DNA from: Nitrospirota bacterium
Lineage (GTDB): Bacteria > Nitrospirota > Thermodesulfovibrionia > Thermodesulfovibrionales > Dissulfurispiraceae
Assembly: GCA_004321915.1 (NCBI GenBank)
Contig: SCQE01000079.1
Location: 1 to 48,596 of the forward strand
Length of the DNA stretch: 48,596 bases
Direction of reading: 5' to 3'
Below are positions 15,619-34,145 of the stretch, piece after piece. The notes under the pieces were generated by a model. That model was not told the origin of the DNA, did no database searches, and saw only the letters and a program-made list of their open reading frames with translations. A program made the position numbers and the translations under genes. How positions within the stretch are numbered: the first letter of the stretch is position 1; each line of letters opens with the position of its first letter.

Positions 15619-15786
15619 AAGGATGAGTCTCTGTAGTGAATTGCGGAGTTTTGGTAACAGTTCTTTGCGAAGTGAAGCGTAAAGCAGCCGCAAGTGTCTG
15701 AGCCCGCAGGGCGAGTTTTGCGGCTGTAGTGAAACGAGCATTTAGAACTGTCAAAACGCAGCTCTGAACGGAAGAGATTCATCCTT
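15619..15786 (+). repeat. palindromic repeat family, copy 2 (168 bp)
   Basis: The terminal arms AAGGATGAGTCTCT (15619-15632) and AGAGATTCATCCTT (15773-15786) pair at 13 of 14 positions, and the inner arms ACAGTTCT (15657-15664) and AGAACTGT (15744-15751) and the apical GCCC-GCA-GGGC (15702-15712) also pair. The interior is largely identical to copy 1 at 1390-1560. Where the two copies differ inside a stem, both partners have changed, so pairing is kept. It lies between the MacB-like permease gene and the TolC gene, both read on the minus strand, so it would be in their transcript if they are one operon. Confidence 0.85.
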
Positions 15787-30352: not shown

Positions 30353-30696
30353 CTTACCCCTCTTTAAAATTAGCCGGACATATGGATTGCAAGGATCATA
30401 CCAAAATCAAATCTTTATTTTTCAATTTGTTGCATTGACCGGAAAACAATATGCGCAAAAAACGTATACGCTTAAAGTAGAATATCCAGTATATTCATCG
30501 GTGAAAGAAAACAGGGCCGCCGGCAATACGGACGGATTCGACGCATTGATGTCAATTTCGTACGAAGCACATGCCGGTGAAATCAAACATTATTCGTTTT
30601 AGCTTATGCGCTATCCCTAATACTTTCGTTATCTATATGCATACTGCTTGCCGAATTTCGATTGAGGTATCTCGATACACTCGCTCTCTTTGTTTA
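30353..30696 (+). other. intergenic region with a possible gene fragment
   Basis: No complete gene is seen in these 344 bases. The plus strand holds an open stretch of about 65 codons ending at a TAG at 30602 whose translation (for example KTYTLKVEYPVYSS, then NTDGFDALMSISYEAHAGE) looks protein-like, but there is no plausible start or ribosome site; it may be a remnant of a truncated gene. The left copy of the 22-bp direct repeat falls inside it. The promoter of the minus-strand biosynthetic operon is expected here, but no clear boxes stand out. Confidence 0.4.
30528..30549 (+). repeat. 22-bp direct repeat, left copy
   Basis: The sequence begins ACGGACGGATTCG and ends ACGCATTGA, and is identical base for base to 34051-34072. 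The bases on either side of the two copies do not match, so the repeat is exactly 22 bp. It marks the left edge of the NACHT cassette. Confidence 0.9.
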
Positions 30697-32790
30697 TTAT
30701 TCAATCTTGTCCCAAGAGCGAGAGGCTATGTGATCTCTGAGCATTAGATGCAGGAATCTATAGCTGCCTCCTACTCTTTGGAGGATTTTTCGTTCGGACA
30801 TCTCATCGAGAAAACGCACGTATTGGAAAGGCAGTCTTTTTTGGCGCCACAGCAAAAAACGAAGGCAATAATGTTCTATGTAAGCTTGCCCACCGAATAT
30901 AAGGTACAACATAAACCAGAAAAGAAATGGATAAGAAGAAAAATACTTATACAATAAAAGTGCAAAAAATATACTTAGCGGCACGGAAAAAAATAAAGCA
31001 TTCAACATAGAATTTCGGATTCCTTGGTTTGCATTCTTTTTTTTCAGAAGAGGCTGCTTTAGCTCTGTCAGCCCAAAAGCCAACCCCATAAGCAGCCCAA
31101 AAGTCAGCGCCATAGCCAGCCCACCCATAGCCAGCCCACCCATAGCCAGCCCACCCATAGCCAGCCCACCCATAGCCAGCCCACCCATAATCAACCCTAC
31201 AACTAGCCCTACAACCAGCTGTGAGGCTATGTTAGAAAATAATACTCTAACATTATTTTTTGATGAGAGAGAGGACAGTCGTATCAATTCAACAGGATCG
31301 ATAACGGGGGGCTTAATTTCGGAAAAAAATACAAGCAGCCCTACAAGCAGCCCTACAACCAGCCCTACAACCAGCCCGCCAGCCCCCCAACCAACCAGCC
31401 AACCAGCAAGCCCTGCAACTATGCCGTAAGTCAATCTGTATTGCATGCCGGTTTTACTGAACAATATAGTATCTTGTTCAGTAAACAGCCCCCAAGCAAG
31501 CCCCCAAGCAAGCCCGCCAGCAAGCGCCCCAGCAAGCCCCCCAATCAGCCCGCCAGCAAGCATTGTAAGCAATATTAAACTTAATCCGAGCATTGAGGGG
31601 TATTTCAGTAGAGTGGGCTGAAGGCTTTCAAGTGCGAATTCTGTTTGAGAGCGAGATTTCAGGAGTTCGGCAAGCCATGTCAACCAATCAAGCTTCTGCC
31701 GAATTGAGGGTAATAGACATGATGCACCTTCATTGCCAAGCTTTTGCTTAATGAACTCATTTAGCAGATACTTGCGATTTTCTTCTTCTGAATTACAAAC
31801 CAGTGCAACGTCGGTTTCCAGAGTTGTCCGGCATAGGACCATAATACTTAAAAAAAGCGGCGTCTGAGCAAGTGATAGCAAGGGAGGATGCTTTTGTAAA
31901 AACTGGATCAGTTTAAAACAGTTTAAATTGTGAAGGTATTCAAAAAGTATGTCTTGGCTTAACGGCTCGATATAGACCGCGCCGTTAAGGTTCAGTCGAG
32001 CTGATAGGTGTTTATATTCATCTATTCTTGAACAGATAACCAGCCGCATCTGTTGCAGTTGGAATTCATTGATTTGTTGAATAAACAACTCTTGGAGGGT
32101 TGTTTTCAGTTCATCAAGCCCATCGATAAAGGGAAGAATGCTCCCCTTTTCTATCAATTTTTGGCCGATTTTCGGAGAAAGCCTGAACATGATTTTCATC
32201 TGGTCGGCAAGCCATGAGACGATTGGCTCTCCGGCCCAAGTAGAGCATTCAAAAATTACCGGTACAGGCCGATTGGAGTTTTTCTGAGCTTCATCTAATA
32301 GATACTCTGATAGCTCAAGTAGTGTTGTGGTTTTCCCGGAGCCCGGCTGTCCGAGGATCAACAGTTTGCCTTGAATTTCTGGCAAATTGTAAACGTCCTT
32401 GATAGTTTTACCATCAGGGACAGGATGATCTGGCTTTTTTCCTATGGCTCCCATCTTTAATGACGGAAAAACCTGAGAATATTGAATATCCATCTTAAGC
32501 GAAATGGAAACATCCTCATGGAGGGACGATGCCAACCTACACTTGGTGTCCGAAATGAGGCGTTCTATAAGATCACTCCGTGTAACTTCGTCAGGCCATC
32601 CACGCTGTTGGAGTTTGGACAAGCCGACAGCTGTTGTAAGAGCGGCCGATTTATGTCGTTTGAATAACCAGACAAGGAAGGTTATGAAAAGGACTAATAT
32701 TGAAGTGCCGATGCCGCTCCACGCTACTTCAGGATGTTCCATGAACCACGCCCATGTGAATTTAAACCATACTGCAATGTTATCAATCAA
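30697..32790 (-). CDS. membrane NACHT-type STAND NTPase
   Basis: The 697-residue protein starts with one membrane helix (about residues 26-43). The NTPase core has Walker A GQPGSGKTTT (147-156), Walker B LPFIDGLDEL (219-228, with the small-residue/Asp pattern of NACHT proteins), and sensor 1 LVICSRIDEY (250-259). After a winged-helix-like region, residues from about 400 to 640 form a very Gly/Ala/Leu-rich multi-helix membrane part that includes five tandem GGLAM units. Bacterial NACHT proteins include several that protect against phage by oligomerising and killing the cell; a membrane C-terminus suggests pore formation. That role is inferred. Its upstream neighbour is 172 bases away and may be a partner. 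Confidence 0.85.
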   Translation of the reverse strand: MIDNIAVWFKFTWAWFMEHPEVAWSGIGTSILVLFITFLVWLFKRHKSAALTTAVGLSKLQQRGWPDEVTRSDLIERLISDTKCRLASSLHEDVSISLKMDIQYSQVFPSLKMGAIGKKPDHPVPDGKTIKDVYNLPEIQGKLLILGQPGSGKTTTLLELSEYLLDEAQKNSNRPVPVIFECSTWAGEPIVSWLADQMKIMFRLSPKIGQKLIEKGSILPFIDGLDELKTTLQELFIQQINEFQLQQMRLVICSRIDEYKHLSARLNLNGAVYIEPLSQDILFEYLHNLNCFKLIQFLQKHPPLLSLAQTPLFLSIMVLCRTTLETDVALVCNSEEENRKYLLNEFIKQKLGNEGASCLLPSIRQKLDWLTWLAELLKSRSQTEFALESLQPTLLKYPSMLGLSLILLTMLAGGLIGGLAGALAGGLAWGLAWGLFTEQDTILFSKTGMQYRLTYGIVAGLAGWLVGWGAGGLVVGLVVGLLVGLLVFFSEIKPPVIDPVELIRLSSLSSKNNVRVLFSNIASQLVVGLVVGLIMGGLAMGGLAMGGLAMGGLAMGGLAMALTFGLLMGLAFGLTELKQPLLKKKNANQGIRNSMLNALFFSVPLSIFFALLLYKYFSSYPFLFWFMLYLIFGGQAYIEHYCLRFLLWRQKRLPFQYVRFLDEMSERKILQRVGGSYRFLHLMLRDHIASRSWDKIE
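31111..31185 (-). repeat. five perfect 15-bp tandem repeats inside the NACHT gene
   Basis: The unit CATAGCCAGCCCACC is repeated five times without a mismatch and encodes GGLAM five times on the minus strand. Related degenerate 12-bp and 15-bp Gly-Leu-Val repeats continue on both sides (about 31330-31420 and 31480-31560). Perfect identity implies recent expansion; copy number is likely to vary between strains. Confidence 0.9.
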
Positions 32791-32962
32791 TGTTTCTCCA
32801 CGCCATTTGGCGCTGGCCCCATTTTCCGTTTAACGTCCCGATAATTATTGTCCGGCATAATAACTGTCACTATGCTCTCTTGTATTTGGGCTTCGATGTC
32901 GTCTCGCCTTATCTATCGCATCCCTGACATTTCGCCTGATGGAGTACTCCTTTAGTCCTTCG

Positions 32963-33841
32963 TTAGCCAGTACCTTTTGATTTGTCAGCTAATAGTGTTT
33001 TTAGTGCATGATTCAACTCTGCTTCATCTTTTAATGCTTGCGCCAAACGTTCTGAAAGTTCGATCAGAATAACTCTTACACTGCTTGCAATTTCGAGACA
33101 TGCTTCATCAGTCTTATCGTGAACCCCTTCACTCAGAGCCCCATGCAGCAATGATAAGGGATTGTGGCCATTTATTAATAGGCTCTGTGGGATACCTTTC
33201 TTTACCGATGAAAGAGCCTTGCTGAATTGCGTTTCTTTTAACGCGCTTTCGAGTTCAGCAATACTCTCTTTTGGTGCGCCAAGCTGAGTAGCAACTTTGA
33301 TTATTTCCCTCAATATACGATCTTTTTGGTTTTCGACAACCCGTCGATAATAAACAAAAGCACCAATTCCTAATCCTTGGTTCTCACATCTCCGACCTCT
33401 CAGAAACAGTTCTCTATCAGGACCTATTAAACTGATTAGTCGAGCCGGCGTCGGAGGACCAAAAGGTGGAAGCTCCCCAAATTTGTAACAATGACCTGAG
33501 AGTTTACTTTGATCAGTTTTTGCAGCAAGAGCAAAAACTTTATCTGTTTTCTGACAATTGGAACACTTGTATGTCAGATAAAAAAATTTCCACGACAAAC
33601 TAAGGTCAGGCGCTGTAGTTATACATCTAAAAAATCTTGTGCCATTACAAACATCATTTGAACAATGTAATTGTATTTCAGGAATTCCCATGACCTCCGC
33701 TGAATAGCCAGCGCGATACTCACGAGTTGCTATATCACTAATGGCTATAGCTTGGTTTGGCGGCATGCTTTCCAAGAAATCAACCAATGTTAGAACTTGC
33801 ACTTCCGGTTCCTCGGGTTTGCTGTTTTCTTCTGCGCCCAT
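32963..33841 (-). CDS. zinc-ribbon protein with DUF4145-like region
   Basis: The 292-residue protein has two Cys pairs in its first third: CSNDVCNGTRFFRC (near residue 66) and CSNCQKTDKVFALA (near residue 94), which together look like a zinc ribbon. The second half, with LGIGAFVYYRRVVENQKDRIL and LHGALSEGVHDKTDEACLEIASSVRVILIEL, resembles the helical DUF4145 family, often found in restriction and defence loci. No catalytic motif is seen. It is upstream of the NACHT gene on the same strand and in the same 22-bp-bounded segment, so a sensor or partner role is possible. Family call by eye only. Confidence 0.6.
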   Translation of the reverse strand: MGAEENSKPEEPEVQVLTLVDFLESMPPNQAIAISDIATREYRAGYSAEVMGIPEIQLHCSNDVCNGTRFFRCITTAPDLSLSWKFFYLTYKCSNCQKTDKVFALAAKTDQSKLSGHCYKFGELPPFGPPTPARLISLIGPDRELFLRGRRCENQGLGIGAFVYYRRVVENQKDRILREIIKVATQLGAPKESIAELESALKETQFSKALSSVKKGIPQSLLINGHNPLSLLHGALSEGVHDKTDEACLEIASSVRVILIELSERLAQALKDEAELNHALKTLLADKSKGTG

Positions 33842-34050
33842 TTTATTTCTCCATTTGTTTCAGGCTGCTAAGTTATTATTTAAACATTGATAACAAAATG
33901 GCATATTGTAAGGCCTCATGACGAACTACTCCCCCTTCAGACCGACTCTGATGATTTCGGAATGAATGTTGGATAGTACCAAAATTCCCCCACAACGTCA
34001 AGAAAACCATAAACCATAAATTCATCTTCCAAATAGGACTCCATACAGAC

Positions 34051-34072
34051 ACGGACGGATTCGACGCATTGA
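34051..34072 (+). repeat. 22-bp direct repeat, right copy
   Basis: Identical to 30528-30549 and in the same orientation. It ends 26 bases before the likely -10 box of the liv operon, so the cassette lies directly against that promoter. Confidence 0.9.
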
Positions 34073-34097
34073 AATTATTCGCCTTATCAGTTAAGCT

Positions 34098-34103
34098 TAT
34101 AAT
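34098..34103 (+). promoter_or_regulatory. likely livK -10 box
   Basis: A perfect TATAAT lies 42 bases upstream of the livK ATG. The matching -35 region (TTATTC, 17 bases upstream) is poor, so an activator may be needed or the original -35 may have been altered by the neighbouring insertion. Confidence 0.4.
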
Positions 34104-34145
34104 ACTTCGATAAGCAAAATTAATATGCATACAAGGGGAGGAAAA

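Follow-up and report, generated by a model that had tools for sequence, protein, structure and literature searches.

Two candidate single-gene anti-phage factors and a perfect 22-bp direct repeat in a probably acquired segment of a Nitrospirota genome

Contig SCQE01000079.1 (48,596 nucleotides, hereafter the window), from assembly GCA_004321915.1 of a Nitrospirota bacterium of the family Dissulfurispiraceae, carries two neighbouring genes on its minus strand between a phosphatase/aminotransferase/ketoacyl-synthase block and a liv-type ABC operon. The first (30697-32790, TTG start) encodes a NACHT NTPase of 697 residues, and the second (32963-33841) a protein of 292 residues with a zinc ribbon and a helical C-terminal domain, belonging to the family phrog_25239. 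Both are enclosed by the two copies of a perfect 22-bp direct repeat, ACGGACGGATTCGACGCATTGA, at 30528-30549 and 34051-34072 (plus strand). The original prediction, made from the sequence alone, saw in this 3.5-kb segment a NACHT/DUF4145-like gene pair that looked like a passenger cassette moved in trans, or like a compact defence island at a site-specific hot spot. Our analysis leads us to favour, with moderate confidence, a different view, in which 30425-34136 is horizontally acquired DNA carrying two independent single-gene anti-phage candidates, and the repeat is probably an insertion scar.

The repeat lies at just the positions that had been predicted, the right copy having no mismatch to the left one. 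Even with 3 mismatches allowed, the 3.63-Mb draft genome contains no further site. Setting aside tandem coding repeats in the NACHT gene, no other exact direct repeat in the window is as long; none of 100 shuffles gave a repeat of this length, and the analytic estimate of the probability that one arises by chance in 48.6 kb is about 9e-5. In 25 comparable loci (where both flanks were long enough to be tested), the longest gene-spanning repeat measured 9 to 16 bp. Such repeats around other copies of either gene are close to the 9 to 14 bp background in most of the window, and were not retained. The 22-bp repeat is thus genuine and calls for an explanation, although by itself it defines no mobile element. 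A search of 396 genomes of the phylum that allowed 1 mismatch gave no copy beyond these two, the best other matches having 2 mismatches (the two that were inspected lie in unrelated contexts), and the 19-base core of the 22-mer had no match in viral contigs.

Read in frame, the 22-mer encodes TDGFDAL. Of its matches in other genomes of the order, the five closest sit at the DG-x-x-AL motif of receiver domains, and the near matches at the order level (up to 3 mismatches) lie within response-regulator genes, at TDG[VF][DG]AL in frame. We considered that the repeat might be a fragment of a receiver domain and tend to exclude it: the flanks have no receiver match, two phylum-level matches with 2 mismatches lie outside receivers, and degenerate codons for TDGFDAL occur nowhere else in the genome. 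The likeness, which is not fully explained, is taken as similarity through a common motif.

Sequences adjoining the repeat were also compared. A stretch just inside the left copy (30589-30644, plus strand) is weakly similar to one just outside the right copy, in the liv promoter region (34074-34132, plus strand), with p ~0.001 both from shuffling and from random segments of the window, the similarity having been noticed post hoc. Related sequence to the right of the 22-mer at both copies would be in keeping with attachment sites, or with a longer duplication that has since decayed, a hint to which we give little weight. A larger duplicated segment around the repeat was not retained: to the left of the copies the similarity reaches only p 0.03-0.05, and it corresponds to a repeat (D14, 30393/33971) that coincides, at the right copy, with a promoter-like -10 box on the minus strand, and therefore carries no weight. 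Rfam and ARAGORN gave nothing credible as an RNA element or tRNA at the repeat, and none of the inverted repeats found was a terminal one at the ends of the segment.

The composition of the segment sets it apart. Its GC content is 0.432, compared with 0.455-0.517 in every other 3.5-kb stretch of the window, and in GC content at third codon positions (GC3) the two genes, with 0.30 (zinc ribbon) and 0.44 (NACHT), fall below the 0.54-0.66 of five neighbouring genes. This low GC content, together with the rarity of the zinc-ribbon gene, which is present in no other of the 396 genomes of the phylum save as one fragment of 25% identity, agrees with the proposal that the DNA had moved in recently. 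As had also been predicted, no recombinase lies inside: apart from the two genes, no recombinase-sized open reading frame (ORF) is found between the repeats.

The left flank is collinear, at 80 to 83% DNA identity, with the sole congener in our sample (G001) as far as position 30424, that is, 104 bp short of the left repeat. Past the phosphatase, this congener has a nitroreductase and TolC-like, HigA-like and UvrA-like genes (names given from reading of the translations); neither of the two genes nor the 22-mer is present in it, and the liv operon is missing. The right flank shares 70 to 78% protein identity with the liv operons of four genomes (G042, G034, G002 and G036). Similarity to G042 begins at 34137, just ahead of the liv start codon and 65 bp past the right repeat, and in that genome liv follows the end of an sdhB-like gene (our own reading of the translated flank). 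The non-conserved stretch thus extends from 30425 to 34136, with the repeats 104 and 65 bp inside its edges, a position that fits an insertion and equally a rearrangement joining both blocks. The biosynthetic block and the liv operon, named in the original prediction as the surroundings of the segment, are each conserved, but in no other genome examined are they neighbours. The segment thus marks a break in synteny and not a recognized site of insertion.

The NACHT assignment, already made in the original prediction, is borne out by Pfam (PF05729, 32.4 bits for a cut-off of 26.7, E 1e-7). The domain covers residues 144-286, and contains the Walker A motif (GQPGSGKTT) as well as the Walker B motif with its acidic patch (FIDGLDE), as in bacterial NACHT proteins and other STAND NTPases. 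Hydropathy places one transmembrane (TM) helix at residues 21-45, and a glycine-rich multi-TM region at residues ~394-617, made of some six to eight hydrophobic stretches rich in GGL/GLxxG. The tail, QRVGGSYRFLH (residues ~672-681), was recognized by family alignment. Part of the membrane region, in GGLAM units, is encoded by about five perfect 15-nt tandem repeats (31110-31199, minus strand), whose copy number could vary between strains with the frame kept.

This organization places the protein in a family whose members consist of an N-terminal effector, a NACHT domain, a glycine-rich multi-TM region and a 'VGGxYxFxH' tail; in the window protein, too, the multi-TM region lies between NACHT and this tail. 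Relatives are sporadic, being found in 14 of 395 other genomes of the phylum, several over their full length and several over part of the NACHT region only. They are also carried by 38 plasmid records, and none was found in viral contigs. Five full-length relatives in the phylum were examined; their N-terminus is a TIR domain in four cases and DUF4062 in one, and all have the multi-TM region and the tail. Aligned with the window protein, they are invariant at GxPGxGKT and DGLDE in the NACHT domain, at NQGI..S and HY.LR at the junction of membrane region and tail, and at VG..Y.F.H in the tail. The membrane C-terminus, which the original prediction had placed outside described systems, turns out to be a feature common to this family.

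What differs from one relative to another is the N-terminus. The TIR-NACHT-multi-TM proteins of the phylum (loci of G132, G177, G326 and G358, and G221 with a second TIR form) share the NACHT domain, the multi-TM region and the tail motifs with the window protein, at 27 to 30% identity over the full-length alignment and 32 to 35% over the matched core, but they start with a TIR domain where the window protein starts with a single TM helix. No N-terminal domain, TIR or DUF4062, was matched in the latter. Absence of a TIR does not exclude membership, since proteins from plasmids of Nostoc and other cyanobacteria (for example NZ_CP040285, WP_256874683), about 31 to 40% identical to the window protein (the Nostoc type about 39% over residues 80-436), have the NACHT domain, the multi-TM region and the same tail, also without TIR. 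Their neighbouring genes differ, however, and the N-terminus of the Nostoc protein is a soluble repeat-like stretch. The experimentally tested proteins bNACHT02, bNACHT12, bNACHT25 and bNACHT32 share the central NACHT module of the STAND superfamily; they differ in having PD-(D/E)XK nuclease N-termini or SNaCT C-termini, the features of the tested clades 6 and 14, and no multi-TM region is described for them (PMC12169576). Neither of these two domains was matched by Pfam or PADLOC in the window protein. As far as sequence can tell, the membrane region is the hallmark of the family, and an N-terminal TM helix in place of an enzyme-like effector is the unusual part. The NACHT gene is thus of a known kind with its N-terminus swapped. 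That a TM helix can stand in for the effector, with the membrane region and tail retained, suggests that the membrane region takes part in sensing or anchoring.

STAND proteins act by nucleotide-driven oligomerization, and tested bacterial NACHT proteins defend against phage by means of N-terminal effectors (PMC12169576). On these grounds, the NACHT protein of the window is most likely a membrane-embedded STAND switch, held in the inner membrane by its N-terminal helix and the glycine-rich TM region. Its NACHT site would bind ATP, and on sensing a phage product or a disturbance of the membrane, the protein would oligomerize. Assembly in the inner membrane would then probably damage the membrane or the cell, as in abortive infection.

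The second protein is a full-length match to phrog_25239 (E 3e-86). With the TRX32-1 gene QQM14049 and its relatives, it shares homology from end to end at 39 to 63% identity, four cysteines and the motif RRCENQGLGIGAFxYYRRVVE. The family is 38 to 63% identical across Cyanobacteria, Proteobacteria, Campylobacterota, Poribacteria, Spirochaetota and phages. Neither Pfam nor PADLOC, the latter holding models of defence genes, has a model matching the window protein or its 18 aligned relatives, and NCBIfam gave nothing near cut-off; for the window protein, Pfam was silent even at E<=1. Four cysteines (C60, C65, C93 and C96) are invariant in the family alignment, which supports the predicted zinc ribbon; RR at 166-167, E170 and H233/S237/H241 are invariant as well. 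Searching solved structures by sequence yielded nothing useful.

The confident AlphaFold2 model (pLDDT 90, pTM 0.68) is rich in beta structure in its N-terminal half and helical in its C-terminal half. Among the best matches to this helical bundle are HEPN chains (AbiA 8oz7, AF0298/2hsb, HepT and RnlA) with Z scores of 5.5 to 6.7 and root-mean-square deviations of 3.4 to 4.5, and, as in the HEPN superfamily, which includes DUF4145 (PMC3710099), a conserved histidine is found near the last long helix. However, rhodopsins, FAT domains and designed bundles, all unrelated, score as high, and the HEPN motif Rx4-6H is missing: HxALSxGxH stands in its place, with no arginine at the right spacing before the invariant H241. 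The modelled fold is therefore only compatible with HEPN. The 'DUF4145-like' label did not hold: DUF4145 (PF13643) gave no match at E<=1 in the window protein or in any of the 19 family members, and none in the genome itself, while a comparison of the family by hhalign with DUF4145-type proteins from the order, weak because it used only four sequences, reached E 0.35 and a probability of 0.2%.

Besides the window, the zinc-ribbon gene occurs in 31 records, which include some near-duplicates: 8 genomes of the GTDB collection, 20 viral contigs, 2 Leptospira plasmids and 1 Rhizobium phage. It occurs singly, and its neighbours include type I restriction-modification genes (L053, L054), TIR genes (L050, and L066 at a distance of 4.3 kb), Shedu (L057/L064), a ResIII helicase (L072) and a DNA methylase. 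As these neighbours were chosen by eye, the defence neighbourhood is suggestive only. In Rhizobium phage vB_RleA_TRX32-1, which is T7-like and reported as lysogen-induced, the relative (L059:4986-5855) is a lone reversed gene adjoining the major capsid gene. Such a reversed, single-gene position next to the major capsid gene is typical of phage cargo genes. A copy in Poribacteria (L054:7971-8864) is split over two ORFs (46% and 57% identity) and is perhaps a broken gene; it directly follows a 1272-residue type IIG-like restriction-modification protein.

The zinc-ribbon protein would most likely act on its own: the ribbon would bind nucleic acid, and the helical domain would exert or pass on a toxic or blocking effect. 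We regard this family as the part of the locus most worth attention: it is well conserved, travels as a single gene and lacks any Pfam or PADLOC model. Its members are good candidates for defence or superinfection exclusion by a single gene, and the family merits testing against phage in its own right.

The question arises as to whether the two genes belong together. Neither BLASTP with the NACHT protein of the window nor a motif search of the adjoining ORFs found a NACHT relative beside the zinc-ribbon gene in any of the 31 other records. Among 22 genomes or records bearing the zinc-ribbon gene, two have NACHT-domain matches, which are weak and lie on other contigs. In the other direction, the zinc-ribbon gene is absent from all 14 further genomes of the phylum that carry a NACHT relative. 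The observation made at this locus is real, and the defence flavour attributed to it is supported; the pairing and cassette model, in contrast, is unproven, and the pairing is on balance unlikely. Two separate arrivals are the simplest account; most likely, two anti-phage genes came together, each independently, at a scar left by a rearrangement or an insertion. Directly observed are the sequences, the repeat, the restriction of the segment to this lineage, the architectures of the families and the want of linkage between the two genes elsewhere, whereas the defence role, the triggers, the action on the membrane and the mode of insertion are deduced.

Four points weigh against this account. 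We found no anti-phage test of either family in the literature examined, and the defence role is inferred. No empty site exists among the genomes examined, where the flanks are nowhere adjacent, so that insertion at the 22-mer is likewise a deduction. The zinc-ribbon gene is only partly associated with defence, many of its loci having no recognized defence gene nearby. Finally, both genes have the same direction with a gap of 172 bp, which leaves room for co-transcription and local cooperation.

How such a segment could have been generated remains to be considered. It may be one mobile cassette, inserted at a 22-bp core by a recombinase acting in trans, the two copies then being attL and attR. 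A perfect repeat that is unique in the genome, the sharp drop in GC and the closeness of the repeats to the edges of the non-conserved stretch all speak for such an event, as does, weakly, the resemblance of the stretch inside the left copy to that just outside the right copy, which would be foreseen if attP and attB had sequence in common beyond the core. However, the further copies of the 22-mer that this scenario predicts, and the hot spot of the original prediction, found no support: the 22-mer was not found next to other cargo, and no second site, occupied or empty, was found in the phylum sample or in viral contigs. Moreover, the segment has no recombinase, its two cargo genes are unlinked elsewhere and compositionally unlike each other, and its flanks are adjacent in no relative. 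We therefore hold a single cassette to be possible, but rather improbable.

Alternatively, and with a slightly smaller probability still, a rearrangement in this lineage, and not an insertion at one site, may have joined the phosphatase and liv blocks, the two genes and the repeat being the debris of several events, or the repeat a product of chance or of assembly. This would agree with the gene orders elsewhere, where the phosphatase of the congener is followed by a nitroreductase and not by liv, and the liv operon of G042 is preceded by the end of the sdhB-like gene; the window is, in addition, one contig of a 145-contig draft assembly. Chance is nevertheless hard to reconcile with the estimate given above for an exact 22-bp repeat, 22 bp is short for a typical assembly error, and the closeness of the repeats to both edges of the non-conserved stretch also speaks against this reading.

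A cooperating defence operon, in which the zinc-ribbon protein would serve the NACHT protein as an accessory sensor or effector, appears unlikely. The common strand and short gap would suit it, as would a promoter-like site upstream of the first gene, the zinc-ribbon gene (TTGACG-17-TACTAT with an extended -10, 33973-34001, minus strand; weak, in a scan near the shuffle background), and the want of a recognizable effector domain in the NACHT protein, unlike in its TIR-bearing relatives. The distribution of the two genes outside the window argues against it, and so does their difference in GC3. Least probable of all, and by a wide measure improbable, is a compact recombinase-free cassette moved in trans via a 22-bp core, in which a membrane NACHT protein and a new zinc-ribbon/HEPN-like accessory would form a new two-gene anti-phage system with a new mode of cargo mobility.

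Two further features of the window may be mentioned. A retron-type reverse transcriptase lies at the contig end (47431-48423, minus strand; best PADLOC model RT_VII-A2, E 5e-86). Rfam detected no retron RNA in the sequence remaining beside it, and the RNA may be cut off by the contig end. A dispersed palindromic element of about 145 nt, with the sequence …GCGAAGTGAAGCGT..AAGCAGCCGCAAGTGTCTGAG..CGAGTTTTGCGGCTGTAG…, is present in two copies (~1400-1545 and 15628-15785) in the same orientation, 14.2 kb apart, and accounts for a 21-bp match elsewhere in the window.

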